Below are positions 6,802-49,693 of a DNA stretch of 49,693 bases, piece by piece. Position 1 is the first letter of the stretch; every line of letters begins with the position of its first letter. This DNA is from Gammaproteobacteria bacterium (GTDB lineage Bacteria > Pseudomonadota > Gammaproteobacteria > HK1): contig JAJDUQ010000256.1 in NCBI GenBank assembly GCA_022826505.1, positions 1 through 49,693 on the forward strand, read 5' to 3'. The notes beneath the pieces are model-generated. The model was not told where the DNA came from, ran no database searches, and was given only the letters and a program-made list of their open reading frames with translations. Position numbers and translations under genes: made by a program.

Positions 6802-8421
6802 TCACTCCGGCCGGACGTAGATTTCATCCAGCGGCGATGAGGTGCCCCAGATGGTCTGCGGCGGGTTGCCGATGCGCTTGTTGTAGACCGTGTGGTAGGG
6901 CAGCGTGTGCACCCAGTACACGGGCAGCTCGTCGGCCAGCAGCTTCTGCGCGTCGGAGTAGATCGCGATGCGCTTCGCCTGGTCGAGCTCCATCCCGCCC
7001 ATGCCCAGCAGCTCGTCGACCTTGGGGTTCGCGTAGCCCTGGGTGTTGGACCAGATAACGCCCTTCTTGATGTTGGTGCTCAGGTAGGTCCGGTGCACGC
7101 CGATGACCGGATCGCCCCAGTTGAACACCACGTCCCAGGTCAGGTCGAACTCGTGGTTCGAGATGCGCTTGGCCCAGGACGGGAAGTCCGGCGACGCGCG
7201 CACCGTCATGTCGATGCCGATCTTCTTGAGCTGCGGTTTCAGGTACTCCGCGTGGGGTCGCGTGAACGCGCTGGCGAAGTCGACGAACAGCTTGAAGCGC
7301 ATGCCGTCGTCGCCTCGGGCGTATCCGGCCTCGTCCAGGATCTGGTTGGCCTTGTCGATGTCGAGGTCGTACGGCTCGACGTTGGGCTCGTAGAAGGGGC
7401 TGCCGGGGTGGAAGCCGGTGCGCGCCTCGGTGGGGGCGCCGAGCAGCAGGGCGTTGATGATGAAGTTCCGGTCGACGGCGTAGGCGATCGCCTTGCGCAC
7501 CGCGAGATCGCTGGTCGGCGCACGCTGGTGATTGAAGGCGAGCCACACCAGCGGTCCGATGGCCGCGTAGCCCTGGTCGGTCACCACGAGGTGGTCCTTC
7601 TCCTTCATGCGGGCAAGCTCGCGGGGATTCGCCTCGAAGGTGGCCAGCAGTGTCTCGCCGTTCTCCATCGCGATGGTGCGCGAGGACGGGTCCCTGATGA
7701 TCCGCATGATGATTCGGTCGACGTAGGGCCGCCCCTCGATGAAGAAGTTCTCGTTGCGCTCCAGGATGATGTGCTGGTCGCGCTTGAACTCGACGAACTT
7801 GAACGGCCCGGAGCCGACGACGTCCTCGGAGTTGCGCGGATGCGACTTCGGATCCTGGCCGTCGCCGTAGATGTGCTCCGGAATGATTGACAGGAGCTGC
7901 GAGGACATGGCGAGCAGCAGAGCGGGATGCGGCTGCGAGAGCCTGATGACCGCGGTCAGGTCGTCGGGGGTCTCCACGCTCTCGACCGGCGCCATCATGG
8001 TCTTGAACGGGTGGTTCGCCTTCACCGTCTTGATCGAGAAGGCGACGTCGCTGGAAGTGATGGGGTGACCGTCGTGGAAGGTCGCTCCCTCGACCAGCTT
8101 CAGGGTGACGGTGAGGCCGTCGTCGGAGATGTCCCACTCCCGCGCGAGATAAGGATGCGGGTTCCAGTTCTCGTCGAATCGCAGGGGGGTCGCGAAGAGC
8201 TGCGAGCCGGGCTGGCCGGTCCAGACGCCCGACTGCACCGCGGGGTTCAGATGCCTCGGGGTGCCGCCTATCGACCAGATGAGGGTGCCGCCCCGGGTGG
8301 GCTCCTCGGCCGACACGATGGACACCGCGGCGGTCAGCACCGCCAGCGCCGCGACGCGAACGGCGTGGTGGAACGCACCGGGCAGTTGCGAACCGCGAAG
8401 GACTTGGTTCGTGAATTTCAT
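6802..8421 (-). CDS. ABC-transporter solute-binding protein, peptide/nickel family (SBP_bac_5)
   Basis: 539 residues, ATG at 8421 with ribosome site AGGAGA at 8434-8429. A signal peptide is visible: basic start, hydrophobic stretch VAALAVLTAAVSIVSA, then a likely cleavage before EEPTRGGTLIWS. The mature part begins with the family motif RGGTLIWSIGGTPRHLNP and continues with GATFHDGHPITSSDVAFS and GSGPFKFVEF, all typical of DppA/OppA-type proteins. It should bind peptides or similar oligomers in the periplasm and hand them to an ABC permease. No permease or ATPase gene is next to it; the neighbours are a helicase and a divergent amidohydrolase, so it is an orphan here. The substrate cannot be told from the sequence. 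Confidence 0.92.
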   Translation of the reverse strand: MKFTNQVLRGSQLPGAFHHAVRVAALAVLTAAVSIVSAEEPTRGGTLIWSIGGTPRHLNPAVQSGVWTGQPGSQLFATPLRFDENWNPHPYLAREWDISDDGLTVTLKLVEGATFHDGHPITSSDVAFSIKTVKANHPFKTMMAPVESVETPDDLTAVIRLSQPHPALLLAMSSQLLSIIPEHIYGDGQDPKSHPRNSEDVVGSGPFKFVEFKRDQHIILERNENFFIEGRPYVDRIIMRIIRDPSSRTIAMENGETLLATFEANPRELARMKEKDHLVVTDQGYAAIGPLVWLAFNHQRAPTSDLAVRKAIAYAVDRNFIINALLLGAPTEARTGFHPGSPFYEPNVEPYDLDIDKANQILDEAGYARGDDGMRFKLFVDFASAFTRPHAEYLKPQLKKIGIDMTVRASPDFPSWAKRISNHEFDLTWDVVFNWGDPVIGVHRTYLSTNIKKGVIWSNTQGYANPKVDELLGMGGMELDQAKRIAIYSDAQKLLADELPVYWVHTLPYHTVYNKRIGNPPQTIWGTSSPLDEIYVRPE

Positions 8422-8834
8422 GAATCGTTCTCCTGAATGAAGGCCGGCCGCCCCGGGAACGGGACACCCGGAACGCCGCGACGGGGACCGGAGTATTTCA
8501 CAATCGTCCCGGCGTGTAGAACCGCCGGCGCCGGACGGAGTTGCGACCGACGACCCCGGCCGTCGAGCACGTCATTCGCCACCGCGGAGGACGACCACGA
8601 AACGGCGGAACATCATCGGCATCGAAGGACGGTTTCCGCCGAGCGGGGGCGTCTCGACCCCGGTGGATCGCAAGGCCACGGTGGTTCGAGCCGGCCGCCC
8701 GTGCGTCCTTCGGGAGAATCTTCGCGCGAGAAGCCGGCTCCGGCGAACGCAGGGCGGCATCTCGCGTAGTCTTGTCGGCGTACCGCCGAGGTTGTCGACG
8801 TACACCCGAAGCCATGCCACCGGAGGCCGCAAGG
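8422..8834. other. Divergent intergenic region between solute-binding protein and amidohydrolase
   Basis: About 410 bases separate two divergently read genes, so both promoters should be here. Open frames exist on both strands but have no family resemblance and look like high-GC chance frames. The only firm signals are the ribosome sites at its ends: AGGAGA at 8434-8429 for the minus gene and GGAGG at 8822-8826 for the plus gene. I see no convincing -35/-10 pair. Confidence 0.5.
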
Positions 8835-10337
8835 ATGGCAAGCGCAAACGGCACGACACGAATCCAGGGCGCGGAACGCGTCCTCGCCTGGGACGAGGAG
8901 CGCGGGGACCACTGCTACCGATCGAATTGCGACGTGGTGTTCGATGCGTCGGGGATCGTGGCGGTGGAAGGCGGAGGCAGAGACCCCGGCAGCGAATCGC
9001 CCGCGGAAACCGTCGTCGACGGCACCGGGGTAATGGTCATGCCCGGCATGATCAGCACCCACGCGCACCTCAACGGCGGCAGCCTCGCCACCGGCTTCCT
9101 CGAGGAAGTCCTGGATCCGATGTTCCGCCACTCCCCCATGTACACCCGCAAGGGTCCGTTCTGGAACAGCGACGTGGACACCCCCGGACGCGACGGCGGA
9201 CAGTGGTTCGCCGCGGCGATGCGCCACGCGCTCGCCGAGCTGATGGCGAGCGGCGTCACCACCGTGGTGGACATCCAGGGGGTGAGCGACCACGGCGAGC
9301 TGTGGTGCGAGGTGCTGGCCGGAAGCGGCATGCGCGCGTACGTCGCGCCGTCGTTCCAGGAGGCGGTCTGGAAGGTCCGCGACGGTCGGGTCCTCGAGCA
9401 TGAATGGAATGCCGAGCGGGGCCGGCGGGGATTCGAGCTGGCGTGCGCGACGCTCGACCTCGTGCGCCGGCACCCGAGCGGACGGCTCCGCGGCATGGTC
9501 TTCCCGGCGCAGGCCGACACCGTCGGCGAAGGCCTGATGCGCGAGGCGAAGGCGGAGGCCCGCGACCGGGGGCTCGTGTTCCAGACCCACTGCGCCCAGA
9601 GCGTCCCGGAGTTCCGGACCATGGTCGCCCGCACCGGAGTCACGCCGGTGCGATGGATGGCCGACATCGGCGTGCTCGACGACTCCACCATCCTCGGCCA
9701 CGCCATCTACCTCGACCACCACAGCGCCCTCGCCTGGCACGGCCGCGAGGATCTGGCGATCCTGGCCGACCACGAAGTGTCGGTCGCCCACTGCCCCATC
9801 ACGTTCTCGCGCTGGGGGACGGCCCTGGAGGACTTCGCGCGCTACCGGGATGCGGGGGTGGACCTCGCGATGGGCAACGACACCGGGCCACACAACATGC
9901 TGGAGGAGATCCGCTGCGCGTTCACCCTCGGCCGCATCCGGTCGCATGCCCCCGCGGAGCTTTCGATGAGCGACGTGTTTCGCGCCGCCACCACCGGCGG
10001 GGCGCAGGCGCTCGGCCGGAGCGACATCGGCCGGATCGCGCCCGGCGCCCGGGCGGACCTGGTGCTGATCGACCTCACCCACCCCGCGATGCGCCCGGGT
10101 ATCGACCCGCTGCGCTCGCTGGTGTTCACCGCGGCGGACCGGGCGGTACGCGACGTCTACGTGGACGGCCGGCTCGTCTACGCCGACCACCGGCCGGTCG
10201 GATTCGACGCGCCGGCCGCAAGCGCGGCGTTGACCGAGGCGCTCGCCATGAAGATCGCCGAAATTTCGGCGCTGGACGGTGTGCCGCCAATGGACGAGAT
10301 CGCCACGATGTCGTTTCCGGAGCACGAAGCGGCGTGA
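8835..10337 (+). CDS. Amidohydrolase of the chlorohydrolase/cytosine-deaminase type
   Basis: 500 residues from ATG at 8835, chosen because GGAGG lies eight bases upstream. An in-frame ATG at 8814 lacks such a site. The fold is a metal-dependent TIM-barrel hydrolase. It has the first metal pair H76/H78 in MPGMISTHAHL, then QTHC, GHAIYLDHH and the aspartate of AMGNDTG, in family order. It ends with the small beta domain (GARADLVLIDL, YVDGRLVY). Such enzymes hydrolyse C-N or C-Cl bonds in purines, pyrimidines, triazines or cyclic amides. Given the hydantoinases and amidases nearby, a nitrogen-heterocycle or amide substrate is likely, but none can be named. A VOC protein gene follows by 92 bases on the same strand. 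Confidence 0.9.
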   Translation: MASANGTTRIQGAERVLAWDEERGDHCYRSNCDVVFDASGIVAVEGGGRDPGSESPAETVVDGTGVMVMPGMISTHAHLNGGSLATGFLEEVLDPMFRHSPMYTRKGPFWNSDVDTPGRDGGQWFAAAMRHALAELMASGVTTVVDIQGVSDHGELWCEVLAGSGMRAYVAPSFQEAVWKVRDGRVLEHEWNAERGRRGFELACATLDLVRRHPSGRLRGMVFPAQADTVGEGLMREAKAEARDRGLVFQTHCAQSVPEFRTMVARTGVTPVRWMADIGVLDDSTILGHAIYLDHHSALAWHGREDLAILADHEVSVAHCPITFSRWGTALEDFARYRDAGVDLAMGNDTGPHNMLEEIRCAFTLGRIRSHAPAELSMSDVFRAATTGGAQALGRSDIGRIAPGARADLVLIDLTHPAMRPGIDPLRSLVFTAADRAVRDVYVDGRLVYADHRPVGFDAPAASAALTEALAMKIAEISALDGVPPMDEIATMSFPEHEAA

Positions 10338-13080: not shown

Positions 13081-13875
13081 TCATCTCGCCAGCAGGTCCG
13101 CCCGCACCACCTCGTTTGATGGCGCATCGGCCGGATCGATGCCCCGACGTCGCTGCCGGAAGTTGAAGCTGACACTGATTCGCTCGTCGGCGAGGGCGCC
13201 CTCCTGTGCTCCCTCCGCATGGACGTCCCCTGTCGTGCCGTCGCGGGCACCGGCTTGCGCCTCGGTCGCACCCGAACCCGCGCGGGCCATGTTCGGATGC
13301 GTGGAGTGGACGAGCCAGGCGGGAAAGGCGACGAGCCGGCCGGCCACCGGCTGGTAGTAGGCCTCCGCCCAGGTATGCGCGGAGCGACGCCTCGAGTCGA
13401 AGTACGGCGTGATCACGTGCGCCTGGGGGCGCGGATCGGTCAGGCAGAGCAGGCCGCAGTCGTCCGGCGTGCGCACGTAGTAGACCCCGCTCCACAGCGC
13501 ATGCGGATGGGTGTGGTGGCGATTGAACGCACCGCGCGGATTGACGTTCGCCCACATCGAGTCGCACACCGGCTCCCAGGCGTCGTCGTAGCCCTGGTCG
13601 GTGAACACGCCGTGGATCAGCTCGAAAATTTCCGTGGTGAGCTCCGTGAACTCCAGGCGCAGGTGCATGTCGGTCGGGCTATGCCACCCTCCGAGCTGAG
13701 GCACGTTCGAGCGGAACGTCCCGCCCGGGTCACGCTCTCGCCATGCGCGGATGTCCGCGACGAGGCGCACGTTGAGCTCCTCCGCCCGTGCGAGATCGGT
13801 GCGGTAGACCGGCGTCGGGAAGAAGTAGTCCCGCGCCATGCGCTTTGCGCGTTCGGGGGCTGTGTCGTCGGTCAT
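13081..13875 (-). CDS. TIGR02466-family putative 2-oxoglutarate/Fe(II) oxygenase
   Basis: 264 residues from ATG 13875; the frame is open to an ATG at 13977, and neither start has a clear ribosome site. The family start FFPTPVYRTDL is present. The double-stranded beta-helix core contains NRHHTHPHALWSGVYYVRTP with candidate iron ligands, LVAFPAWLVHSTHPN with the distal histidine, and ERISVSFNF with the arginine expected to hold 2-oxoglutarate. An insertion of about 30 residues rich in Ala, Gly, Glu and Asp (13189-13278) separates the distal histidine from that arginine; family members normally have only a few residues there. The substrate is unknown. The gene is convergent with the phosphoesterase gene and divergent from oligopeptidase B. 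Confidence 0.82.
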   Translation of the reverse strand: MTDDTAPERAKRMARDYFFPTPVYRTDLARAEELNVRLVADIRAWRERDPGGTFRSNVPQLGGWHSPTDMHLRLEFTELTTEIFELIHGVFTDQGYDDAWEPVCDSMWANVNPRGAFNRHHTHPHALWSGVYYVRTPDDCGLLCLTDPRPQAHVITPYFDSRRRSAHTWAEAYYQPVAGRLVAFPAWLVHSTHPNMARAGSGATEAQAGARDGTTGDVHAEGAQEGALADERISVSFNFRQRRRGIDPADAPSNEVVRADLLAR

Positions 13876-14124
13876 CGATTGCGTCGAGCGTGGCGTCGCA
13901 AGTTCCGATGCATCGCCTCGGTGGCGGGCGATACGGGTCATCACCAATAATGGCACTTCGTCGTCCGGACTCGCCATGCCCGACGCATGGTCGTGGCCAT
14001 CGAATCAGGCATGGCCCCGTGGACGAGCCATGCCTCGCCGATGCTTCGCCTGCCCATTGAAGAACTCGGTCCCCGCATCCGGTCAAGGGAACATGACGAA
14101 TCCTCAAGCAAGGAAATCCTCCAA

Positions 14125-16401
14125 ATGCCCCCGACTCCTCCCGTAGCACTCCGCAAGCCGACCATGTTTCCGCCCTTGCACGGACGCCGCCGAACCGACG
14201 ACTACGCGTGGCTCAAGGACGACAATTGGCAGCGGGTGATGCGCGACCCGGCCGTGCTGCGCGCGGACATCCGCGAGTATCTGGAAGCCGAGAACGCATA
14301 CAAGGAAGCGGTGCTCGCGCCCACGGAGGTGCTGCGCGCCACGCTCTTCGACGAATTCCGCGGTCGCATCAAGGAGGACGATTCGAGCGTCCCGGCGAAG
14401 GACGGCGCGTGGGAGTACTACCACCGCTACCGTGAGGGGGGGCAGCATCCGGTGGTGTGCCGGCGTCCGGCCGGTGACGCCGCCCGCGCCGCCGCGCCCG
14501 CCAGCGCAGACGACCTTGCGGATCACGCCGGGAGCGGTCTCCCCGCCAGCGCCGACCACACCTGCGGCCAAGCCGCAGGCAATCCCTCCGCCACCGGAAG
14601 CCGGAACCGTGACCCGACGGAACACGCGGCGTGCCATGCCGTCGCCGGACCCACGACCGCCGGCTCCGCGAGCGAGCAGATCCTCCTCGACGGCGACGCC
14701 GAGGCCGAGGGCAGGAGCTACTACCGCATCGGCGGTCGAGGCCACGCCTTCGACCATCGGAGGTTCGCCTGGACCGTCGACGAGAACGGTTCGGAGTTCT
14801 TCACCCTGAAGGTGAAGGATCTCGAAACAGGGCAGGAACTCGGCGACACCGTCGAGCGGTGCTCGGGCGGGTTCGTCTGGGCCGGGGATCACCAGACGCT
14901 CTTCTACACCGTGCTCGACGACCACCACCGTCCCTGCAAGGTGCTCCGTCATCGCGTCGGCACCGACCCCGCCGACGACGTCCTCGTCTACGAAGAGCGG
15001 GACGCGGGGTTCTTCCTCAACGCCGGGCTGACCGAGTCCCGCCGGTTCGTGGTGATCGACGCGCACGACCACGTCACGAGCGAGGTGCGGCTCGTCGACG
15101 CGGCGCGGCCCGACTCGGCGCCGGTGCTGGTCGCGCGGCGCGACCCGATGACCGAGTACGACGTCTCGCATCACGGGGACCGGCTCATCATCCTCACCAA
15201 CGCCGACGGCGCCGAGGACTTCAGGATTGTCGAGGCTCCGGTCGCATCGCCCGGACGCGAGCACTGGGTCGATCTCGTGCCGCATCGCCCCGGAGTCCTG
15301 ATCGCCGGTTTTGAGGTGTACGCCCGATGGCTGGTGCGGCTGGAGCGCGAGAACGCCCTGCCCCGCATCGTGGTGCGTGACCTCGAAAGCGGCGAGGAGC
15401 ACGCCATTGCATTCGAGGAAGAGGCGTACAGCCTGGGGCTCGCCGGCAGCTACGAGTACGACACCGACATCCTGCGGTTCACCTACTCCTCGATGACCAC
15501 CCCCGAGCACGTCTACGACTACGACATGCGCATCCGCGACCGCGTGGTGCGCAAGGTGCAGGAGGTACCGAGCGGCCACGACCCCGCGGACTACGTCACC
15601 CGCCGCATCATGGCCGCGTCGCACGACGGCGAGCTCGTACCGGTCTCGGTGCTGCACCGAAAGGACACCGCCATCGACGGCTCCGCCCCCCTGCTGCTCT
15701 ACGGGTACGGCTCCTACGGAATGTCCATGCCGGCGTCGTTCGGCACCACGCGCCTGAGCCTCGTCGACCGCGGCTTCGTCTACGCCATCGCCCATGTGCG
15801 CGGCGGCACCGAGCGCGGCTACGGCTGGTACACCGACGGCAAGCTCGCGAAGAAGACCAACACCTTCCACGACTTCATCGCGGCCGCCCACGCGCTCGCC
15901 GATCGGGATTTCACCCGCCGCGGCCGCATCGCCATTCACGGCGGCAGCGCCGGGGGCCTGCTGGTCGGGGCGAGCACGAACATGGCGCCGGAGCTGTTCC
16001 ACGCGGTCATCGCCGAAGTGCCGTTCGTCGACGTGCTCAACACCATCTGCGACGACACCCTGCCGCTCACCCCGCCGGAGTGGCCGGAATGGGGCAATCC
16101 GATCGAGAGCGAGGCCGCGTACGACTGCATCGCCGCCTACAGCCCCTACGACAACGTCGAAGCGAAGGCATACCCGCACATCATCGCTACCGCCGGTCTC
16201 ACCGACCCTCGCGTCACCTACTGGGAACCCGCAAAGTGGGTGGCGAAGCTGCGCGCGACGAAGACCGACGAACGCCTGCTCGTGCTGCACACCAACATGG
16301 AGGCGGGGCACGGTGGAGCGGCGGGACGGTTCGACCGGCTGAAGGAGACGGCGCTCGTCTACGCGTTCGTGCTCCACGTGTTCGGCATGGGAGACGAGTG
16401 A
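14125..16401 (+). CDS. Oligopeptidase B-type serine peptidase (S9A) with an internal insertion
   Basis: 758 residues from ATG 14125, with an AAGGAA site upstream. The N-terminus, LRKPTMFPPLHGRRRTDDYAWLKD, begins the beta-propeller. The C-terminal alpha/beta hydrolase holds the nucleophile in HGGSAGGLLVG, the aspartate in TAGLTDPRVTYWEP and the histidine in MEAGHGG. These enzymes cut short peptides after basic residues in the cytoplasm or periplasm; no signal peptide is seen here. Family length is near 690 residues. The excess is explained by about 67 additional residues (116-182) between PVVCRRP and EQILLDG, in the first propeller blade. The insertion keeps the frame and contains a strong inverted repeat, described separately. 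A very long open frame on the opposite strand is a high-GC shadow. Confidence 0.92.
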   Translation: MPPTPPVALRKPTMFPPLHGRRRTDDYAWLKDDNWQRVMRDPAVLRADIREYLEAENAYKEAVLAPTEVLRATLFDEFRGRIKEDDSSVPAKDGAWEYYHRYREGGQHPVVCRRPAGDAARAAAPASADDLADHAGSGLPASADHTCGQAAGNPSATGSRNRDPTEHAACHAVAGPTTAGSASEQILLDGDAEAEGRSYYRIGGRGHAFDHRRFAWTVDENGSEFFTLKVKDLETGQELGDTVERCSGGFVWAGDHQTLFYTVLDDHHRPCKVLRHRVGTDPADDVLVYEERDAGFFLNAGLTESRRFVVIDAHDHVTSEVRLVDAARPDSAPVLVARRDPMTEYDVSHHGDRLIILTNADGAEDFRIVEAPVASPGREHWVDLVPHRPGVLIAGFEVYARWLVRLERENALPRIVVRDLESGEEHAIAFEEEAYSLGLAGSYEYDTDILRFTYSSMTTPEHVYDYDMRIRDRVVRKVQEVPSGHDPADYVTRRIMAASHDGELVPVSVLHRKDTAIDGSAPLLLYGYGSYGMSMPASFGTTRLSLVDRGFVYAIAHVRGGTERGYGWYTDGKLAKKTNTFHDFIAAAHALADRDFTRRGRIAIHGGSAGGLLVGASTNMAPELFHAVIAEVPFVDVLNTICDDTLPLTPPEWPEWGNPIESEAAYDCIAAYSPYDNVEAKAYPHIIATAGLTDPRVTYWEPAKWVAKLRATKTDERLLVLHTNMEAGHGGAAGRFDRLKETALVYAFVLHVFGMGDE
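14470..14670. repeat. In-frame insertion with palindrome inside oligopeptidase B
   Basis: This stretch encodes low-complexity Ala/Gly/Asp/Thr-rich sequence with no counterpart in oligopeptidase B as I know the family. It contains a perfect inverted repeat, CCTGCGGC at 14561-14568 and GCCGCAGG at 14572-14579, with a three-base loop. In another forward frame the same DNA would encode a proline-rich linker. The borders are approximate, set by where family sequence stops and resumes. A palindromic element inserted in frame is the best explanation; a lineage-specific loop is the alternative. Confidence 0.5.
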
Positions 16402-36850: not shown

Positions 36851-37051
36851 ACAAAACAGTGAATTGGTCAAACCTGAGACTGTGCCACCCGCAACCGGCA
36901 GCGACGGCGCATCATGGAGGCCACCAATTTCGGTCCACACGCTCATCGGAATGATGGGCGACGCTGGTGCCGACTATACTGTGCCGGAGCCAATAGCCGG
37001 GCCCGGACGTTCCGGCTCGATGGGTTGCCCCTTCCGCGTGATCGAACGGCA

Positions 37052-40000
37052 ATGAATCCTCCCCGCTGGACCGAGATCACCCCCTCCGAGTACGCGTGGG
37101 AGCGCGAGGCGCTCGACTACATCAAGGCACGCCTCCCGGACAGCGAGCCGTTTCGCGCATGGTCGAATTTCGAGTTTATCGCCGAGGACGGCAGCATCAA
37201 CGAAGTCGATCTGCTCGTCGTATCGCTCCACAAGGTCTACCTGGTCGAGATCAAGAGCTGGAGTGGCGCGATCTCGGGCGACCAGAGCACCTGGCGACGT
37301 GAAGTCGACGGCAAGGAGTTTCTCGTCGACAGTTTGCTCCTGCTGGCGAACCGGAAGGCGAAGAAGCTGATTGGTCTGCTGAAGACGCAGAAGGCGCTCG
37401 CCAGGCAACGCAGACCCTATGTCGAGGCCGTCGTCTTCCTGTCTCGCGTTGGTGTGCGGTGCCGGCTCGAAGGCCGGGCTCGGGCAGGGGTGCACCTCTC
37501 CACGGAGTCCGAACGGGACGGTCATCCGAACGTCCTCGAAATTCTTGGCGGCCATGCGGGCTTCGATCCGCGCCGGCCGCCGCAGCGCATCGACCGGTCG
37601 CTCTCCCGGGCCTTCGCGCGCGCCGTGGAGCAGGCGGGAATCCGTCCCTCGCAGCGACAACGGCGCGTGGCCGACTACGTGCTGCGAAACCTGCTGCTGG
37701 AGACCGATGCGTTTCAGGACTGGGAAGCCGAGCACGTGTCGGTGCCGGGATCGAAACGCCGGGTCCGCATCTACCCGCTCGCGCGGACTTCATCCGAAGC
37801 CGTGCGTGCCGAAGGGCGGCGCGCGGCAGAGCGGGAGTACCAGTTGCTCGACGGCATCACCCACGACGGCATTCTCCGCGTTGAATCCCTCACCAGCGCG
37901 GAGCAGGGACCGGCCCTCGTCTTCGAGCATGACCCGGACGCCGAACGCCTGGACCGCTTCCTCGAACGCCGCAACGCCGACGGCCTGGACCTGCCGACGC
38001 GCCTGGACCTGCTGCGCCAGTTGGCGGAGACACTGAAGTACGCCCACGAGCGTCGCCTCTACCACCGGGCACTGACTCCGCAGAAGGTGCTGGTGACCGA
38101 TGCGAACGCCGAACGACCCAAGCTGAAGATCTTCGACTGGCGGACCGGCGAGCATGCCGCGCCGCTCGGCTCGAACACGTCCGGGTCACCGGGTTCCGGT
38201 GCTCTGTCCACACTTGGCCTCTCGGGCGACGATGAGGGCGACGTCTACCTCGCGCCGGAGACCGCCCACGGACAGTTCATCGCGGAGAAGCTCGACATCT
38301 TCTCTCTCGGCGCCATGGGCTTTCGACTGTTCTCGGGACAACCGCCGGCATCCACCGTCGCGGCCCTGAACGCGCGGCTGGCAAACGCAGGTGGCCTCCG
38401 GCTCTCCGATGCAGTCGACGGTCTCCCCGCCTCCCTCCAATTGGTCGTGGAGTCCGCAACCGATCATGAGGTCGGCAAACGCCCAAACTCCGTCTCCGAA
38501 TTCTTGGACCTGCTCGTCGAGGCGGAGCGGGAGCTCGCCGACGTGCGCGAGGAGCAGGAAGCCGTCGTTCACCCCCTTGATGCCAATCCGGGCGACATGC
38601 TGGAGCACGGCTTCCTGATGGAACAGCGCCTCGGCAAGGGGTCCACTGCCGTCGCCCTCAAGGTGGAGCACGATGAAGGCAGCGGAGTGCTCAAGGTAGC
38701 GCTCGATCCCTCGCTCAACGAGCGCATCAGGCGCGAGGGGGAAGTGCTGGAATTGCTGCGCCATCCGAACGTCGTCTCGTTCCGTCGTTACGTGGAGTTG
38801 TCCGGACACGCGGCATTGTTCATCGCGATGGCCGGCACGGAGAACAAGACCGGCACCTACACCCTGGCGGATCGCATCCGCGAGGAAGGACGCCTCTCTC
38901 TCGACCTCCTGCAGCGTTTCGGGAGTCAGTTGCTGAACGTCGTGCAGTGGCTGGAGGAGAACGGCATCTCCCACCGGGACCTGAAACCCGACAACATCGG
39001 GGTATCGGCGAGCGCCGCGGACAAGTCGCTGGCCCTGGTCGTGTTCGACTTCTCGCTCGCGAACACCCCGGCAGAGAACATCCGCGCGGGCACCCCGCAG
39101 TACCTGGACCCATTCCTGCCGCGCCGCAAGCCACCGCGCTGGGACGTCTACGCGGAGCGATTCGCGGCCGCGATGACGCTCCACGAAATGGCGACCGGGA
39201 ACCTGCCCCGGTGGGGTGACGGCTCGACCGACCCCTTGCTGGCCGACGAGGAGGTCACCGTCGACGCCGAGTGGTTCGACCCGTCGGTGCGCGACCCGCT
39301 CGCCGAGTTCTTCGCCAAGGCGCTGGCCAGGGACTACCGGTCTCGTTTCGACAGCGCGGAGGACATGTGCCGTGCGTGGTCCGGTTGCTTCGAGGCAATC
39401 GACATGCAGACCGCAGGCGATGAAGAAGGCCGCGATCTGCCAGGTGAGTTCGACGGCGTGACGCGAGAGACGCCGCTCCTCGCGCTCGGTCTCAGCCCTC
39501 GCCTGCTGAATGCGCTTGACCGACTCGGAGCGCATACCGTCGCCCAGCTAGTCGGCCTTCCCCCCATACGCCTGTACCGCAACAAGGGCATCGGACAACG
39601 CATCGTCAAGCTCATCCGCGAGCTGTCGGAGCGTCTGGCGGAGTATCTCGCGGAGCACGAACGGACCCTCGACACCACGACCACCGTCCACAGTGACGAC
39701 CACCCGGTCGATCCCGCCGTCTGGAGCATCGATCTCCTGGCGTCCAAGCTCGTCTCCACCCACATCCCGGACGAAGAAGCTCGCTTGGTGCGCACGGTGC
39801 TGGGGGTCGAGGGCAGACTCGGTCTGCTGCCTGCCCATCGGAAGGTCGCCGAATCGCTCGGTGTCGCGCCGACCGAAATCGCCGGCGCCATCCGACGCGC
39901 GCGGGACCGTTGGGCCAGGCATGGCTGGATGGCACCGCTCCGCGATTCGGTGGCGGCGCTGGTCTCGAAGTACGGCGGCATCATGACGGTGCGAGAGCTC

Positions 40001-41266
40001 GCGGAGGCACTGGCCGCGACCCGGGGCTCCACCGAGACCTGCGAGGCACGCCTGCGGCGGGCGGGCGCAGTGGCCGCGGCCGCATTGGAGATGGAATCAG
40101 CGCGCGAGCAGTGCCGCTTCCGGGTGCAGCGCCACGACGCATCAAACGGTGCTTCGACACTGATTCTCGCTACAGAAGCCCTCGACCCGGCGCTCACCGC
40201 TTCGATGGAATCGCGCGCCGACTGGGTTCGGGAGCTCGGCAAGCTGGCGGACGACATCGCCGGCGCCGACCCACTTCCCCCACCAGCGCGGGTCACGGAG
40301 GCACTCACGGCGGCAGCGCCGCCGGCGGGCATGCAGCCGCTTGCTCCGGACAGGATTCTGCATCTGGCGGTGCAATCCTCGGCGCACGCCGCGATCTCCT
40401 CCCGGGGCGAGCTGTATCCACCCGGCATGACGGCGGAGCGGGCGGCGAAGCTCGGGGCCAGCTCTCTGCTCGGCCCGACGAAGCTCTCCGAGCGAGACAT
40501 CCGGAAACGTGTCGCAAGCCGCTACCCCGAGGCGGAGCCGCTGCCGGGACGACCCTCGCTGGATGACCTGCTGGAGAAGGCGGGGCTCCGGCTCGAATGG
40601 GACGAGCCGACCCGCACGTACCGCTCTCCGGTCGCGCGTTCGAGCTACGCTAGCAGCGCGTCGACCGTTCGCTCCTCCGCGCATGGCGAGGACGGTGCCG
40701 ACGACGCGGTGTCGCTGGACGAGCGTCTGGGCCGAGTGGTCAAGACGCGCGGCTTTCTTGCACTGTCGGTCTCGCTACGGCATCTGTCGCGCGTCGAGCG
40801 GTACCTCGCGGCGGCGCTGGAGTTGGCGCCCTTCAGCCTCGAGGCCGGGCTGATTCGTCACATGAAATCGGTTGCCGCAGAATTGGGCGCGGACTGGAAG
40901 GTCGTGGTCGCTGCCGATGCCGAGCCCGTGGGCAGCAAGCACCGTCGGAATCTCGATCAGCTCGTTCGCCGTGCCGTGCCGGGATTGGCACACGAGGTCA
41001 CGACCGCGCCGGAGCCGTTGCTGCTCACGCACCCCGGACTGCTGGCCCGCTACCGTCAGCTCGACGTTCTGGCCAATGTCCAGGAGGCGTGCCAGCGGGG
41101 GATGGCGCCGGCGGCGCGGCTCCTGTGCATCGCAGCAGACGATGCGGTGAACATGCCGGTGATCGATGGGCATGCGCTGCCAGTGGTCTTCTCCGCCGCG
41201 TGGATGCGACCGGGTCGCGCCTGGCTCTCCCGCACCGAAGCCCCTCGATCGGCACACATGCATTGA
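37052..41266 (+). CDS. pglW: PglW, NERD-kinase protein of type 2 BREX
   Basis: 1404 residues from ATG 37052, where the family sequence begins; the frame is open about 46 codons further up. Domain order: a NERD nuclease-related domain with D53 and the E66-I-K68 motif (VYLVEIKSW); a first kinase-like lobe whose catalytic loop is YHRALTPQK at about 337-345, lacking the HRD aspartate and the asparagine, so a pseudokinase; then a full Ser/Thr kinase with glycine loop LGKGSTAVAL at 527, HRDLKPDN at 641-648 and DFS in place of DFG (VVFDFSLA). A long C-terminal helical region includes HhH-like and HTH-like stretches (DRLGAHTVAQLVGL). In Streptomyces the PglW kinase is part of the Pgl phage-growth-limitation system. 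It is the first gene of the plus-strand BREX locus, 49 bases before pglX. Confidence 0.93.
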   Translation: MNPPRWTEITPSEYAWEREALDYIKARLPDSEPFRAWSNFEFIAEDGSINEVDLLVVSLHKVYLVEIKSWSGAISGDQSTWRREVDGKEFLVDSLLLLANRKAKKLIGLLKTQKALARQRRPYVEAVVFLSRVGVRCRLEGRARAGVHLSTESERDGHPNVLEILGGHAGFDPRRPPQRIDRSLSRAFARAVEQAGIRPSQRQRRVADYVLRNLLLETDAFQDWEAEHVSVPGSKRRVRIYPLARTSSEAVRAEGRRAAEREYQLLDGITHDGILRVESLTSAEQGPALVFEHDPDAERLDRFLERRNADGLDLPTRLDLLRQLAETLKYAHERRLYHRALTPQKVLVTDANAERPKLKIFDWRTGEHAAPLGSNTSGSPGSGALSTLGLSGDDEGDVYLAPETAHGQFIAEKLDIFSLGAMGFRLFSGQPPASTVAALNARLANAGGLRLSDAVDGLPASLQLVVESATDHEVGKRPNSVSEFLDLLVEAERELADVREEQEAVVHPLDANPGDMLEHGFLMEQRLGKGSTAVALKVEHDEGSGVLKVALDPSLNERIRREGEVLELLRHPNVVSFRRYVELSGHAALFIAMAGTENKTGTYTLADRIREEGRLSLDLLQRFGSQLLNVVQWLEENGISHRDLKPDNIGVSASAADKSLALVVFDFSLANTPAENIRAGTPQYLDPFLPRRKPPRWDVYAERFAAAMTLHEMATGNLPRWGDGSTDPLLADEEVTVDAEWFDPSVRDPLAEFFAKALARDYRSRFDSAEDMCRAWSGCFEAIDMQTAGDEEGRDLPGEFDGVTRETPLLALGLSPRLLNALDRLGAHTVAQLVGLPPIRLYRNKGIGQRIVKLIRELSERLAEYLAEHERTLDTTTTVHSDDHPVDPAVWSIDLLASKLVSTHIPDEEARLVRTVLGVEGRLGLLPAHRKVAESLGVAPTEIAGAIRRARDRWARHGWMAPLRDSVAALVSKYGGIMTVRELAEALAATRGSTETCEARLRRAGAVAAAALEMESAREQCRFRVQRHDASNGASTLILATEALDPALTASMESRADWVRELGKLADDIAGADPLPPPARVTEALTAAAPPAGMQPLAPDRILHLAVQSSAHAAISSRGELYPPGMTAERAAKLGASSLLGPTKLSERDIRKRVASRYPEAEPLPGRPSLDDLLEKAGLRLEWDEPTRTYRSPVARSSYASSASTVRSSAHGEDGADDAVSLDERLGRVVKTRGFLALSVSLRHLSRVERYLAAALELAPFSLEAGLIRHMKSVAAELGADWKVVVAADAEPVGSKHRRNLDQLVRRAVPGLAHEVTTAPEPLLLTHPGLLARYRQLDVLANVQEACQRGMAPAARLLCIAADDAVNMPVIDGHALPVVFSAAWMRPGRAWLSRTEAPRSAHMH

Positions 41267-41315: not shown

Positions 41316-45263
<3,948 letters not shown>

Positions 45264-45309
45264 CTTTCGTTTTCTGCAAGTACGACGATTCCATCGACGG
45301 AGAGATCCG

Positions 45310-46359
45310 ATGACGCTCCTCAGCAGCTTCAAGGTAGTCCACTACCGCGGGATCGACGGCTTGTCTCTACCTCGCCTCACCCCCGCCAATCTGGTGACCG
45401 GCGTCAACGGTGTCGGCAAGACGGCGCTGCTCGAAGCGATGTGGCTATTTTACGGGCGATACAACCAGACACTCCTTTGGAACAGGCACGTACATCGCTA
45501 CAACCAGCCCGTTCTGGATCCTGTTGCACGATTGTCGGGCGACCTATTGGAGCTCCATGGCGTGGAGAACGGATCAAGCCACCAGCTCAGATATGTATTC
45601 GAGAAAGCAGCGGACAATGCGCACGTCGCGACGCCTGGAGACGCCGCGGAGCGGAAATTCTCACAGCTTCCCGTCGTAGGACACATCACAACTTGTATCG
45701 ACGGTGAGCTGGTGGAGGGAAATCCCCCTGGAGGGATGCAAACACCCTGGGGACTGATCACCCTGCAGAACCCGGTATCTCCGACACCACGACCGAGTTG
45801 TGTCATAGAAGGGACGGATCTTCAATTCGAGACGTGGGGTGAGCACCTTCAACGATATTCGGACATCGTCAGAGAAGGCCGAAAAGAGGATCTGACAAAC
45901 GCCATCAATCTGCTGCTCCCGAAGGTCAGAGGTCTGGAGATGCTGGCGGACGACGCCGGAGGAACATATCTGTCGGCGGTGATTGCCGATGGACGACAGT
46001 TACCACTTCACGATCTCGGCGGGGGAGTCGTCCGACTGTCCCGCCTGCTGCTGAGCTTCTTCGCATCCCGCAACGGCATGCTGCTTGCAGATGAGATTGA
46101 GAACGGTATTCATCACTCCGTATCGAGAGAAATCTGGACTCGTGCCCGCCAGTGGATGGACCAATGGAACGTACAGCTCGTCGCCACTACTCACAGCGCC
46201 GAGTGCATCGATGCGGCGATGACGGCGTACGAGGATGCACCCGAAGACTTGTCCATCCACAAGCTCTTCGTGAACGAGAAAACGGGTAAGGTTCAGGCGG
46301 CCACGTTCAGCGGAGAATCGCTCGAAGGTGCGCGCAATCTCAACCTGGAGGTCCGGTGA
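45310..46359 (+). CDS. OLD/ABC-type AAA ATPase, PARIS AriA-like partner of a TOPRIM protein
   Basis: 349 residues from ATG 45310, with a GGAGAG site upstream, 46 bases after pglX. It begins FKVVHYRGIDGLSLPRLTPA, the first strand of SMC/OLD-like ATPases. Walker A is GVNGVGKT at 31-38, a signature-like DLGGGVVRLSRLLL at 235-248, Walker B MLLADEIENG at 257-266 and a switch histidine in TTHSAE at 293-298. This is the AAA_15/AAA_21 type that pairs with TOPRIM nucleases in OLD, Gabija and PARIS. Its stop overlaps the start of a TOPRIM-like gene by one base, so they form a two-subunit unit. It is not a standard BREX component; type 2 BREX usually has pglY directly after pglX. It likely senses infection or BREX inhibition and gates the partner effector; that role is inference. 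Confidence 0.8.
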   Translation: MTLLSSFKVVHYRGIDGLSLPRLTPANLVTGVNGVGKTALLEAMWLFYGRYNQTLLWNRHVHRYNQPVLDPVARLSGDLLELHGVENGSSHQLRYVFEKAADNAHVATPGDAAERKFSQLPVVGHITTCIDGELVEGNPPGGMQTPWGLITLQNPVSPTPRPSCVIEGTDLQFETWGEHLQRYSDIVREGRKEDLTNAINLLLPKVRGLEMLADDAGGTYLSAVIADGRQLPLHDLGGGVVRLSRLLLSFFASRNGMLLADEIENGIHHSVSREIWTRARQWMDQWNVQLVATTHSAECIDAAMTAYEDAPEDLSIHKLFVNEKTGKVQAATFSGESLEGARNLNLEVR

Positions 46360-47024
46360 TGCTCCGGAATGCAGGGCCTGACAGGCCGCCGTCACGAATT
46401 TGTTCGGACTGGCTGTTGCTGGTCGAAGGTAGGGATGAGGTCAATCTGTTCAACGCCCTCATGAAGCACTGCTTCGACGCAGAGCCGCAGATCCAGGTGA
46501 TCGAAGCCGGCGGCAAGGACCAGTTTCCCGCGAACCTGCAGGGCATACGCACCGCCGCCGAAACTCGCCCCACCCTCCGCGCGATCGGCGTCGTCCGGGA
46601 CGCCGACGAGGACGCCGGCGCCGCATTCCAAAGCGTCTGCGACCACCTGCGAAACGTTGGATACCAACCACCGAGAGTCCACGGCGAGCTTTCCGGTGGC
46701 GAGCCGTCGATCGGGGTGTTCATCGTGCCGGACGGCGTCGATCCAGGTGCCATCGAGACCCTGTGCCGGCGTTCCAGGGAAGGCGACGACGTATCCGGGT
46801 GCGTCGACGAGTACCTGCGGTGCCTGGACGAACGCGGCGTCAAGAGTTCTTCGAACCGCGACAAGACCTTTGCCCACGCCTACCTCGCAGCCATGCGGAA
46901 CCCTGTAGCACGGGTAGGGGAGGGTGCGCGACAGGGCGCGTGGGATTTCGGCTCCCCGGCATTCTCGGAGCTGTCCGGATTCTTGGGCAGACTTGTCGCG
47001 GTCGGTACCGCGGTCGGCCACTGA
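46359..47024 (+). CDS. TOPRIM-like (DUF3226-type) protein paired with the ATPase
   Basis: 221 residues from ATG 46359, which shares one base with the ATPase stop (TGATG), strong evidence of coupled translation. The TOPRIM core is visible: E23 in LLLVEGRDEVNLFN, then VIEAGGKDQF, and the acidic pair D81/D83 in IGVVRDADEDAGAAF. The C-terminus has SNRDKTFAHAYLAAM and FLGRLV, as in DUF3226 proteins. TOPRIM partners of OLD-type ATPases are nucleases; AriB of PARIS cleaves tRNA when released by AriA. This protein is smaller than AriB (DUF4435), so it is an analogue, not a clear homologue. It would be the effector of the pair. Confidence 0.75.
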   Translation: MLRNAGPDRPPSRICSDWLLLVEGRDEVNLFNALMKHCFDAEPQIQVIEAGGKDQFPANLQGIRTAAETRPTLRAIGVVRDADEDAGAAFQSVCDHLRNVGYQPPRVHGELSGGEPSIGVFIVPDGVDPGAIETLCRRSREGDDVSGCVDEYLRCLDERGVKSSSNRDKTFAHAYLAAMRNPVARVGEGARQGAWDFGSPAFSELSGFLGRLVAVGTAVGH

Positions 47025-47101
47025 ACCGACCACGCGCACCGATCGGTTCGGTCCCAGGGACGACGCGGCCATTCGAACGCGTGACCGCGGTACTCGGAAC
47101 C

Positions 47102-47338
47102 ATGCCCAGATTCAACACCGAAGGGCCAGTCGTCACCCGCGATCACTACTGTGTCCCGCCGCTCGAACAGGTGAATCTCGACGAAATTCCAGAGCGTGTC
47201 CGGGACACGCGGTACTTCGTGCTGCACGCGCCTCGGCAGGCGGGCAGGACCTCGACACTGCTCGCACTCCGGGGTCTCAGAATCTTCCGCCGCGAGGAAC
47301 GTATCGACGACCGCATGATCACCGTGTGGGGAATGTGA
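47102..47338 (+). pseudogene. Stub of an AAA-like ATPase with altered Walker A
   Basis: 78 codons from ATG 47102. The first 55 residues match the start of a common class of AAA-like ATPases: RFNTEGPVVTRDHYCVPPLE, then YFVLHAPRQAGRTSTLLAL. Intact members read APRQTGKTS; here the Walker A lysine is arginine. Homology stops after LLALRG and a stop follows within 25 residues, while full proteins have about 500. It is a decayed fragment, probably left by an earlier mobile or defence gene at this site. Confidence 0.65.
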
Positions 47339-47385
47339 CGGCGCGTGCCAGCGGTCCGCGCATCACCATTCGATGGCCGCCACGC

Positions 47386-47802
47386 CTATTCGATGAAGGC
47401 ATCCGCCGAGACACCGAACCGCTTCGACAACGCCGATACCTGGCGAAGGTTGAGCAACCGCTTGCCGCCGAGCACGTCCGACACGACGCTCTGCGCACCG
47501 ATCTCCGGCAGATCCGCCTGCTTCAACCTGTGCTGCTCCATCAGGAATGCGAGCACATCGACGGGCTTGGCATCCGGAAGCGGGTAGCGTGTCGCCTCGT
47601 ATGCCTCGATGAGATCACCGATGCGTTCCGCAAGCGTCGCCAACATGGATGTTTCGTCCGCCCCTCCGGCGTCGAGAACCTCGTCAAGCACCGCGACCAG
47701 GCGCTGATGGTCGTCCTCGGATTGCGGTACGGTCAGGACATGCGCGAGGTACTCCCAATGTGCGATCGCTCCAGTGGCGATGTCCTTGGCTGTCATACTC
47801 AT
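47386..47802 (-). CDS. higA: HigA antitoxin
   Basis: 138 residues from ATG 47802, chosen because GAGGTGA precedes it. A GTG at 47820 in the same frame overlaps the toxin gene and is less likely. The C-terminal HTH reads FLMEQHRLKQADLPEIGAQS followed by VVSDVLGGKRLLNLRQVSAL and SKRFGVSADAFIE, nearly textbook for the HigA family, with an N-terminal helical toxin-binding part. HigA neutralises HigB and, alone or in complex, represses the operon. It lies five bases after the toxin stop, toxin first, as is usual for higBA. It is antisense to the BREX genes and sits between the TOPRIM gene and pglY. Confidence 0.92.
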   Translation of the reverse strand: MSMTAKDIATGAIAHWEYLAHVLTVPQSEDDHQRLVAVLDEVLDAGGADETSMLATLAERIGDLIEAYEATRYPLPDAKPVDVLAFLMEQHRLKQADLPEIGAQSVVSDVLGGKRLLNLRQVSALSKRFGVSADAFIE

Positions 47803-47807
47803 TTCTC

Positions 47808-48095
47808 TCACCTCTTCCACTTCTCGTCGTCATACTCGGTGTGCGTCAGGACTTCGCGTATGTAGACTTTTCTGCGATTGAAGTGAATGGCAGCGACGAT
47901 GCGCTGGTGATTGCCGGCGACGTTGAATACGAAGTATCTGCCGACCTTGTCGACCCCCGGAAATGCGCACCGTAACGCCGCGAAATTCTCGAACGTCGCG
48001 GTCTTCATGAGACTGTACCAACTCGACAGGGCCCTCTCATGCCATGGGAATCGCGCAGCAGCTTCCCGGATTCGCTTCTGGCTGATCACATGCAT
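47808..48095 (-). CDS. higB: HigB mRNA-interferase toxin
   Basis: 95 residues from ATG 48095; the frame stays open further upstream but the HigB family begins here with MHVISQKRIREAAARFPWHE. The core reads FPGVDKVGRYFVFNVAGNHQ and RIVAAIHFNRRKVYIREVLT, ending HTEYDDEKWKR, all close to Escherichia HigB. It is a ribosome-dependent RNase of the RelE fold that cuts translated mRNA. It appears intact with an intact antitoxin downstream. A perfect palindromic operator lies 10 bases before the start. Confidence 0.93.
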   Translation of the reverse strand: MHVISQKRIREAAARFPWHERALSSWYSLMKTATFENFAALRCAFPGVDKVGRYFVFNVAGNHQRIVAAIHFNRRKVYIREVLTHTEYDDEKWKR

Positions 48096-48104
48096 GGACA
48101 AAAT

Positions 48105-48119
48105 ATAGCAGATTGCTAT
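48105..48119. promoter_or_regulatory. Palindromic operator of higBA
   Basis: ATAGCA, three bases (GAT), TGCTAT: a perfect dyad 10 bases upstream of the higB start on the minus strand. A TATATT hexamer overlaps its proximal arm (48107-48102, minus strand) and may be the -10 box, so bound HigA would block the promoter. Confidence 0.6.
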
Positions 48120-48330
48120 GCTGCGACGCGGATTCACCTCCGGTACTGCTTCATTGACAAGGCGCACCGGCCCTTGCGACACACCGAGGAATCGAAGCCG
48201 AACGAGATCGAGACCGGTCCAATCCACCGCGGCGCAAGAGTCTCGGTCCGCAAGGCAACGGATGGAGCACGCCTCGACAGGTTTGCCATCACCCTGCCAT
48301 GACACTTTCCCCAATCGGAGTCCCGAGACC

Positions 48331-49596
48331 GTGACCACCATCGCCGACATCTTCGACCTCCCCGAGCGTGTTCATCAGGGCGACTTCGTGCTGCGATTGT
48401 CGGAGGGGGTGGAGCGGGCCGAGCGGACGCTGAACGACTACGTGGTGACCGAGCAGCTCGCGGGCTGCTTCGACGACGCGCTGTCGTTGATTGGCAGCGC
48501 CGTCGCAACAAACACCAGCAAGGGCGCGTACCTGCACGGGAGCTTCGGCAGCGGCAAGAGCCACTTCATGGCGGTGCTGACGCTGCTGCTGCGCCGGAAC
48601 GCGGCTGCTCGCTCGATCCCAAGACTTGCCGGCGCCGTCGCGAAGTCCAACGCCTGGACCACCGACCGTCGGTTCCTGGTGGTGCCGTACCACATGATCG
48701 GCGCAACCGGCATGGAGTCGGCAATCCTCGGGCGCTATGCCGAGCACGTGCGCGCAATTCACCCGGAAGCGCCGACGCCGGGGTTCTATCAGGCGGACCG
48801 CCTGTTCGAGGATGCGCGGAGCCTGCGCGCCAGCATGGGCGATGCAGCATTCTTCCGCACGCTGAACGAAAAGGTTCGGGACGGCTCGGGCAATGGAGGC
48901 GGTGGATGGGGCGCTCTCGGAAGCGAATGGGATGCGGCCGGATTCGAAGCGGCCCTCGAAGCACCTCCCGGCGACGACGAACGCCTGCGCCTGGTCGGCG
49001 ATCTCATCGATGCCTACTTCAGCGCCGCGCGCACCGTCGACGCGACGAACGACGAGCGCTTCGTTCCGCTCGACGAGGGCTTGAGCGTCATGTCCCGGCA
49101 CGCGCGGGACCTCGGCTACGATGCCCTGATCCTGTTCCTCGACGAGCTGGTCCTGTGGCTCGCGAGCCACGCCGCGGACACCGCATTCGTCAACCGGGAA
49201 GGACAGAAGGTCGCGAAGCTCGTGGAGGCCATGCAGTCCGACCGGCCGATTCCGATCGTGAGCTTCATCGCGCGCCAGCGCGACCTGCGCGAGCTGGTGG
49301 GTGAACATCTGCCCGGCGCGGAGCAGCTCGGATTCGTCGACGTGCTGAACTGGTGGGAGGCGCGATTCGACACCATCACCCTCGAAGATCGCAACCTGCC
49401 GGAAATCGTGGAGCATCGCGTGCTGCGCCCGAAAGATGCAGCGGCGCGGGAGGAGCTGACGGCCGCATTCGAGAGGACCGCCCGGGTGCGCGAGGAAATC
49501 CTGTCCACTCTGCTCACCCGCGACGGCGACCGCAAGATGTTCCGGCAGGTCTCAGCAATTCCCGCTGGGCCGGATGTTCGATGCGTGAGGCGGTGA
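48331..49596 (+). CDS. pglY: PglY, BREX ATPase, broken after about 405 residues
   Basis: 421 residues from GTG 48331, where PglY homology begins (TTIADIFDLPERVHQGDFVL). Walker A is GSFGSGKSH at 70-78 and the Walker B strand is ALILFLDELVLWL. FARQRD-like and IVEHRVLRPKDAA segments follow the family through GDRKMFRQV near 49546. From there none of the three forward frames continues the PglY family; this frame ends in about 15 unrelated codons and a TGA. Full PglY has roughly 1200 residues. Either something has inserted, a deletion has joined foreign DNA, or the assembly is chimeric. PglY is a large AAA ATPase essential for Pgl/BREX type 2. The start lies 211 bases after the higBA operator. Confidence 0.85.
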   Translation: MTTIADIFDLPERVHQGDFVLRLSEGVERAERTLNDYVVTEQLAGCFDDALSLIGSAVATNTSKGAYLHGSFGSGKSHFMAVLTLLLRRNAAARSIPRLAGAVAKSNAWTTDRRFLVVPYHMIGATGMESAILGRYAEHVRAIHPEAPTPGFYQADRLFEDARSLRASMGDAAFFRTLNEKVRDGSGNGGGGWGALGSEWDAAGFEAALEAPPGDDERLRLVGDLIDAYFSAARTVDATNDERFVPLDEGLSVMSRHARDLGYDALILFLDELVLWLASHAADTAFVNREGQKVAKLVEAMQSDRPIPIVSFIARQRDLRELVGEHLPGAEQLGFVDVLNWWEARFDTITLEDRNLPEIVEHRVLRPKDAAAREELTAAFERTARVREEILSTLLTRDGDRKMFRQVSAIPAGPDVRCVRR

Positions 49597-49693
49597 GGAG
49601 CCGCGGTGTGCTCGCGGGATACGACGCAGGGCGAGCCTGGCCGTCGCACGGTGTGGTGCGCAGTGTCGATGGCGGCTACGTTGTTGTTCCCTG
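49547..49693. other. Sequence after the break in pglY, unidentified
   Basis: This tail does not encode PglY in any forward frame. One plus-strand frame is open from an ATG at 49580 to the window end (MREAVRSRGVLAGYDAGRAW) and has no match I recognise. I see no confident transposon end or target-site repeat in the 147 bases available. Confidence 0.4.

Follow-up and report, generated by a model that had tools for sequence, protein, structure and literature searches.

The pglX-pglY interval of a BREX-2 locus

The window, i.e. the whole stretch of 49,693 nucleotides that was analysed, is contig C167 of a 6.2-Mb genome in 346 contigs, which carries a single DUF3226 copy. On the plus strand it contains pglW (37049-41266) for the kinase/NERD protein of BREX-2, with 1401.9 bits against NF033442 (cut-off 990), and pglX for the adenine methyltransferase (approximately 41316-45263, start placed by alignment with relatives), with 1559.4 bits against NF033451 (cut-off 400). 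Because PglW and PglX both exceed the NCBIfam cut-offs, the host locus is BREX-2. Inside pglX we noted a 17-nt imperfect palindrome (43926-43987) in a linker of about 100 residues that divides the PglX family match in two; the linker is long in genome G660 of the same genus, too.

An OLD-type ABC ATPase of 349 amino acids is encoded on the same strand, starting 46 bp past the pglX stop codon (ATG at 45310, TGA at 46357-46359). The next gene (ATG at 46359-46361, TGA at 47022-47024, plus strand) codes for a DUF3226 TOPRIM protein of 221 amino acids, and base 46359 is common to both. The preliminary description of this DNA had placed the two genes at 45310-46359 and 46359-47024 with a one-base overlap and had seen them as enclosed by pglX and pglY in a BREX locus of type 2; coordinates, overlap and embedding were confirmed.

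Behind the pair lies a degenerate ORF fragment from the ORF list (47103-47338, plus strand) with in-frame stop codons from 47103 on. It gave no family match; our impression is that it resembles the start of an ATPase-type gene. Two genes follow on the minus strand, a HigA-like antitoxin gene (47386-47820; PADLOC PD-Lambda-2_B 4.4e-20, Pfam HTH_3 only below cut-off) and a HigB-type toxin gene (47808-48098; PF09907 87.2 bits, cut-off 27). The N-terminal third of pglY is found at 48331-49552 on the plus strand (NF047891, 3.7e-137 over positions 4-414; start inferred).

pglY is interrupted at 49553 by one end of a repeated transposon (49553-49693), recognised by its repeat matches, terminal inverted repeat and target duplication. 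The final 141 bases of the window gave 22 matches within the genome, and 10 or more of these are located at the end of a contig. The remaining pglY (query residues 403-1249) opens contig C13 (G000:C13:115-2607), where the opposite end of an element of this kind (G000:C13:1-118) precedes it and pglZ (NF033446, 755.6 bits, cut-off 200) comes next. The two transposon ends have a common 16-bp terminal inverted repeat and are inverted relative to each other, and the two pglY halves carry a common 9-bp target duplication. Because the transposon splits pglY, BREX-2 is probably inactive in this assembly, unless the insertion is limited to part of the population.

In a scan of positions 44900-48500 no terminator-like site appeared, where shuffled sequence would give 2.4; the single promoter-like site (0.6 expected) was at 48095-48122, immediately ahead of pglY. 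Both counts are about what chance gives. With its strand and its distance from pglX, co-transcription of the cassette with pglX is plausible. On the other hand, pglY is not obviously part of that transcript, because the degenerate ORF and the opposite-strand HigB/HigA-type genes lie in between.

The two proteins and their named relatives

The ATPase exceeded the Pfam cut-offs for AAA_21 (54.6 bits, cut-off 27) and AAA_15 (44.1 bits, cut-off 32.1), as the PARIS rule asks of its ATPase. Its best PADLOC match was PDC-M38A (8.4e-39), ahead of AbiLi (3.6e-34) and AriA (2.6e-20). Residues G31/N33/G36/K37, D261/E262 and H295/S296 are kept and were invariant in an alignment of 18 sequences, although identity to the aligned relatives was 31% at most; we take these groups to be the Walker A motif, the Walker B motif with the following glutamate, and the His switch. 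A profile of the ATPase searched against solved structures found PtuA (3.3e-16), AriA (8ux9; 5.5e-9) and GajA (3.4e-4). The structure model was poor in its middle part, with a mean pLDDT of 72.6, and Foldseek returned the heads of SMC, Rad50 and PtuA without separating the subfamily.

The TOPRIM protein scored 109.8 bits against DUF3226 (PF11536; 2.2e-31, residues 19-213), well over the gathering cut-off of 27, whereas DUF4435 gave no Pfam match up to an E value of 1; apart from DUF3226, only a sub-threshold match to OLD-like_TOPRIM appeared up to that value. In PADLOC PDC-M38B was best with 1.7e-10, while AriB reached only 0.0074. Thus the protein classes given in the preliminary description, an OLD/PARIS-like ATPase and a TOPRIM protein of DUF3226 instead of DUF4435 type, were right. 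Eight residues (E23, G24, D81, D83, P124, G130, E133 and K169) were invariant in 17 of 17 aligned DUF3226 homologues. In a second set of 16 this held for all but D83, which was nearly so. The glutamate and the acidic DxD motif of TOPRIM domains are therefore conserved, E23 and D81 in 17/17 and 16/16, at an identity to the aligned relatives of no more than 39%.

An AlphaFold2 model built from 16 sequences had a mean pLDDT of 90.7. In a Foldseek search of 350,542 PDB chains nothing was found at 1e-3. The two best matches, both weak and with TM scores below 0.45, were the C-terminal region of an OLD nuclease (E 3.2e-3) and chain 8ux9_A of the PARIS complex (E 0.022), which by inference is AriB. 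Searching solved structures with the single sequence gave no match up to an E value of 10, and with a profile weak TOPRIM matches only (2p62 0.036, 2i5r 0.32, 2fcj 0.34). As far as residue conservation and these weak fold matches go, they give no argument against the TOPRIM site that the preliminary description expected in a structure model.

Both genes have their best PADLOC match in one candidate system, PDC-M38A/B, whose models come without a curated score cut-off. PDC denotes a phage defence candidate (PMC11514479). PDC-M38 is a predicted system and resembles the cassette gene for gene; the difference is that the window's copy resides in BREX-2. PARIS is likewise a two-gene operon of an OLD-type ABC ATPase (AriA) and a TOPRIM protein (AriB), and it has likewise been found inside BREX (PMC11341690). 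Yet the published detection rule for PARIS requires DUF4435 (Rousset et al. 2022, PMC9122126). As the cassette TOPRIM protein belongs to DUF3226 and DUF4435 was not detected, membership in PARIS was rejected. The ATPase matches AbiLi of the AbiLi-AbiLii system, but its partner had no PADLOC match to AbiLii (RloB-type) up to an E value of 1, which excludes AbiL. Gabija and the single-chain OLD proteins also join an OLD-type ATPase with a TOPRIM nuclease, and the cassette ATPase has a weak profile match to GajA. In the cassette, however, the two parts are encoded by separate genes and no helicase-sized ORF lies between these and pglY; Gabija was therefore discarded as well.

A full-text search of the literature, which covered few subscription papers, found no paper on DUF3226, on PDC-M38 or on BREX with DUF3226, and no experiment on any DUF3226 pair.

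Distribution of the ATPase-DUF3226 pair

The ATPase and DUF3226 genes occur together. A same-strand ATPase gene was located directly upstream of every DUF3226 gene in three sets (19/19, 20/20 and 8/8), with DUF3226 genes taken at an E value of 1e-3 with a profile built here. DUF3226 itself was the query for the set of eight and for most of the 19; the 20 pairs from viral contigs, which contain some duplicates, and three pairs from plasmids were obtained mostly with ATPase queries and are biased for that reason. The pairing is more than chance. On one contig (L111, G185:C199, 7216-10641) two such pairs, which differ from each other, follow in tandem on the same strand.

In a sample of the phylum comprising 398 genomes, 15 had a DUF3226 match, 12 of them over the cut-off, and in the bacterial family DUF3226 was present in 7 of 17 genomes. 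Combined and with the window's own genome included, these were 23 copies over the cut-off in 18 genomes. We inspected the surroundings of 21 of them over lengths of 4.8 to 20 kb, leaving out two over-cut-off copies on contig scraps (G052:C167 and G666:C280) and also four below-cut-off rows of the phylum sample, among them G126 and G137 (fetched as L122 and L123). Only the window's copy had BREX-2 around it, as judged by tblastn with BREX-2 queries, which other BREX types would escape. PF08665 missed the BREX-2 PglZ of the window's own genome, so that its absence near the other copies is weak evidence.

The preliminary description had regarded separation from BREX together with another known role as an argument against its proposal; unlinked copies are indeed widespread, but no other role is known.

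Some of the unlinked copies adjoin other restriction genes. A methylase gene lies about 10 bp or less upstream of one pair (L254); its product matches PglX partially at 32-34% and has DISARM DrmMI as its best match. Another pair (L256, in genome G660) adjoins a type II restriction-modification pair, and another PglZ gene is about 19 kb away. Because these copies belong to the same bacterial family as the window, a general link to restriction is possible. Since the pair accompanies BREX-2, a type II restriction-modification pair and a DISARM-type methylase gene within one family, it may quite generally sense phage anti-restriction proteins or methylase complexes that have been inhibited. The ATPase-DUF3226 pairs could then make up a family of restriction guards that is new and widespread and differs from PARIS in both trigger and TOPRIM nuclease. 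We regard this broader proposal as rather unlikely. Should anti-restriction proteins indeed be what the pair senses, PARIS would have a second system of its kind beside it, equipped with another effector; otherwise, the locus cautions against deducing functional wiring from operon position.

Plasmids yielded DUF3226 matches in 83 records, 78 of which were from Klebsiella. In all six plasmid stretches that were inspected the ATPase gene was directly upstream of the DUF3226 gene, and the PLSDB gene table, which is incomplete, listed no BREX gene in any of them. To judge from the same incomplete table, the pair seems to be the principal cargo on plasmids of 4 kb. Among viral contigs the ATPase query found 29 loci and the TOPRIM query two, one of them in common, i.e. 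30 in total. Both genes were present in 20 of the 30, some duplicated, and none of the 30 had a BREX-2 match by tblastn with BREX-2 queries, a search that other BREX types would escape. No DUF3226 match was found in 50,697 phage records (tblastn, 1e-3), so that the case for carriage by phages comes from predicted viral contigs. DUF3226 pairs thus recur as a module of very small plasmids, of chromosomes and of viral contigs.

The plasmid copies bring up a toxin-antitoxin-like maintenance module, in which the ATPase would restrain a TOPRIM toxin and the pair would stabilise its carrier DNA. Besides the 4-kb plasmids, its neighbours are in keeping with this, as the pair adjoins a HigBA-type pair in the window and a BrnTA pair on an Acinetobacter plasmid. 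The closest named relatives, however, are phage defence systems or defence candidates, and we consider maintenance as the main role improbable. Maintenance and defence are compatible with each other.

Cargo of BREX-2 operons and the role of the pair

Two genomes of the same genus, G660 and G661, recorded as MAGs of uncultured Gammaproteobacteria, have PglW, PglX and PglY proteins 67-87% identical to those of the window, with pglX-pglY gaps of 6.6 kb (G660) and 7.9 kb (G661). The G660 slot contains a DS8-type anti-phage protein (L104, 9342-12491; NF053861 900 bits, cut-off 790; PADLOC PDC-S60), the G661 slot an ORF with weak methylase matches only (best 6.8e-5). Of the cassette ATPase there are fragments in BREX orientation, in G660 corresponding to residues 85-158 at 60% identity with a second piece for residues 120-167, and in G661 to residues 85-167 at 55%. 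The DNA identity of the fragments is 66% over 226 bases. Both slots also show a weak HigB trace of 20-22 residues (E about 6e-4 to 8e-4), and no TOPRIM trace was found in either. The fragments imply that an ATPase of the window's lineage was formerly located there and was lost while BREX-2 stayed. Thus the contents of the pglX-pglY slot have turned over within the genus. The DUF3226 copies of these genomes are far from BREX-2: at 1.63 and 3.03 Mb in G660 with BREX-2 at 3.73 Mb, and at 4.51 Mb in G661 with BREX-2 at 1.42 Mb, distances of 0.7-3.1 Mb. Both slots also contain several similar-looking ORFs (L104, 13235-15692; L105, 14586-16857), which resemble Rpn-type transposase/nuclease genes.

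Fragments of the ATPase in two genomes of the genus, together with the degenerate neighbouring ORF and the broken pglY, would be expected if the cassette were a decaying passenger without a function at present. Yet in the window both ORFs and the catalytic residues are intact despite the low identity to relatives (at most 39% for the TOPRIM protein and 31% for the ATPase), which makes decay very unlikely.

How often such genes enter BREX-2 was examined in the best 80 of 196 relatives from a PglX alignment scan of genome contigs. None of these 80 other BREX-2 loci had a DUF3226 gene by the profile built here. The preliminary description had suggested looking for the pair beside pglX in other genomes; this search came back empty in the best 80 of 196. 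The broad ATPase family, on the other hand, was represented by 14 members in 13 of the loci (profile, E 1e-3 or better), six of them in the pglW-pglX gap and seven in the pglX-pglY gap, these 13 all on the BREX strand; the remaining one preceded pglW and was encoded on the opposite strand. The two loci of G660 and G661 are among the 80 (L124, L125), with ATPase fragments only. Measurable gaps amounted to 162 kb and flanks to 521 kb. Under uniform placement, at least 13 of 14 would fall into gaps with a probability of 8e-8 when all flanks are counted, a figure that is too favourable because core BREX genes lie in the downstream flanks, or of 7e-5 when the count is restricted to the upstream flanks. 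Nor are the loci wholly independent of one another, since L143 and L147 have related-looking cassettes and L174 has two. We conclude that members of the ATPase superfamily, taken as a whole, do favour positions within BREX-2 operons.

Where both genes were in reach, the pglX-pglY gap exceeded 600 bp in 35 of 68 loci and was 150 bp or less in 24. Ten ATPase partner genes were scanned with Pfam, seven of these also with PADLOC. Partners were of the DUF4276/HEC-01 type in L160 and L169 (the HEC naming is explained in PMC12111858), of the HNH or PtuB type in L174 (twice), L142 and L140, and of the AbiLii/RloB type in L133; L143 had PDC-M25 and L139 PDC-M31. The L157 partner had no match. In the two cassettes of the Gimesia BREX-2 locus L174, the ATPase in the pglW-pglX slot (7643-9771) is accompanied by an HNH partner and the one in the pglX-pglY slot (13641-15985) by a PtuB-type partner. 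As the partners vary and DUF3226 is absent from the 80 loci, it is the slot and the class of ATPase that occur repeatedly, but not the DUF3226 partner. A standard core part of BREX-2 therefore was ruled out for the pair. The pglW-pglX and pglX-pglY gaps of BREX-2 act as cargo slots that repeatedly gain co-directional ATPase-effector cassettes.

These data bear on the proposal of a back-up within BREX-2 itself, in which the pair would be set off once an anti-restriction protein of a phage has blocked BREX. The idea has been published for related modules (PMC12839542, PMC11341690). OLD-ABC ATPases with TOPRIM or other nucleases were reported inside BREX and BREX-related loci of at least 1242 taxa (Rakesh and Krishnan 2026, PMC12839542) and proposed as back-up effectors against anti-restriction; the main text of that paper does not mention DUF3226. 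The position of the pair 46 bp behind pglX on the same strand and the 13 co-directional ATPases in BREX-2 slots agree with such a function, and the enrichment could mean functional coupling for the ATPase class. Yet DUF3226 is missing from the other BREX-2 loci surveyed, the same-genus copies are distant from BREX-2 while ATPase fragments mark the slot, and the BREX-2 of the window is probably off. Furthermore, deletion of ariA and ariB from a Salmonella BREX locus with embedded PARIS was reported not to lower defence, and neither Ocr nor Gp5 gave activation under the conditions used (Went et al. 2024, PMC11341690). PARIS was also described as independent of EcoKI or other resident type I restriction-modification or BREX systems (Rousset et al. 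2022, PMC9122126). A DUF3226 pair wired to BREX, as the preliminary description had it, is not supported by the survey and by the turnover of the slot, and the built-in back-up is weakened as the pair is rare in BREX-2, widespread elsewhere, lost from the slot of sister genomes and here combined with a broken pglY. We judge it unlikely.

Instead we favor, with some reserve, the view that the pair is an autonomous mobile two-gene anti-phage cassette, a PDC-M38 candidate, in the pglX-pglY cargo slot of BREX-2. Its genes and motifs are intact, the pairing is constant, copies occur on plasmids and viral contigs, and the slot turns over; a role in phage defence is suggested by family resemblance and by the company that the pair keeps. 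The mobile cassette would have landed in the slot and would probably be expressed from the pglX transcript. If PARIS is a guide, the ATPase may serve as sensor and scaffold, its oligomer holding the TOPRIM protein inactive until a phage product is sensed and the TOPRIM protein is released or activated. As a putative metal-dependent nuclease the latter might then cleave tRNA or DNA and arrest the cell. In PARIS, AriB was described as a two-metal tRNA nuclease, and its E26A mutant was inactive in assays (PMC12409363).

About 30 kb away from BREX, at the opposite end of the window, is a second defence-like locus. It consists of a gene for a full-length HmaA-type helicase (3122-6700, minus strand; PADLOC 1689.7 bits) and an ORF at 1275-2822 that matches capP (2.1e-17).
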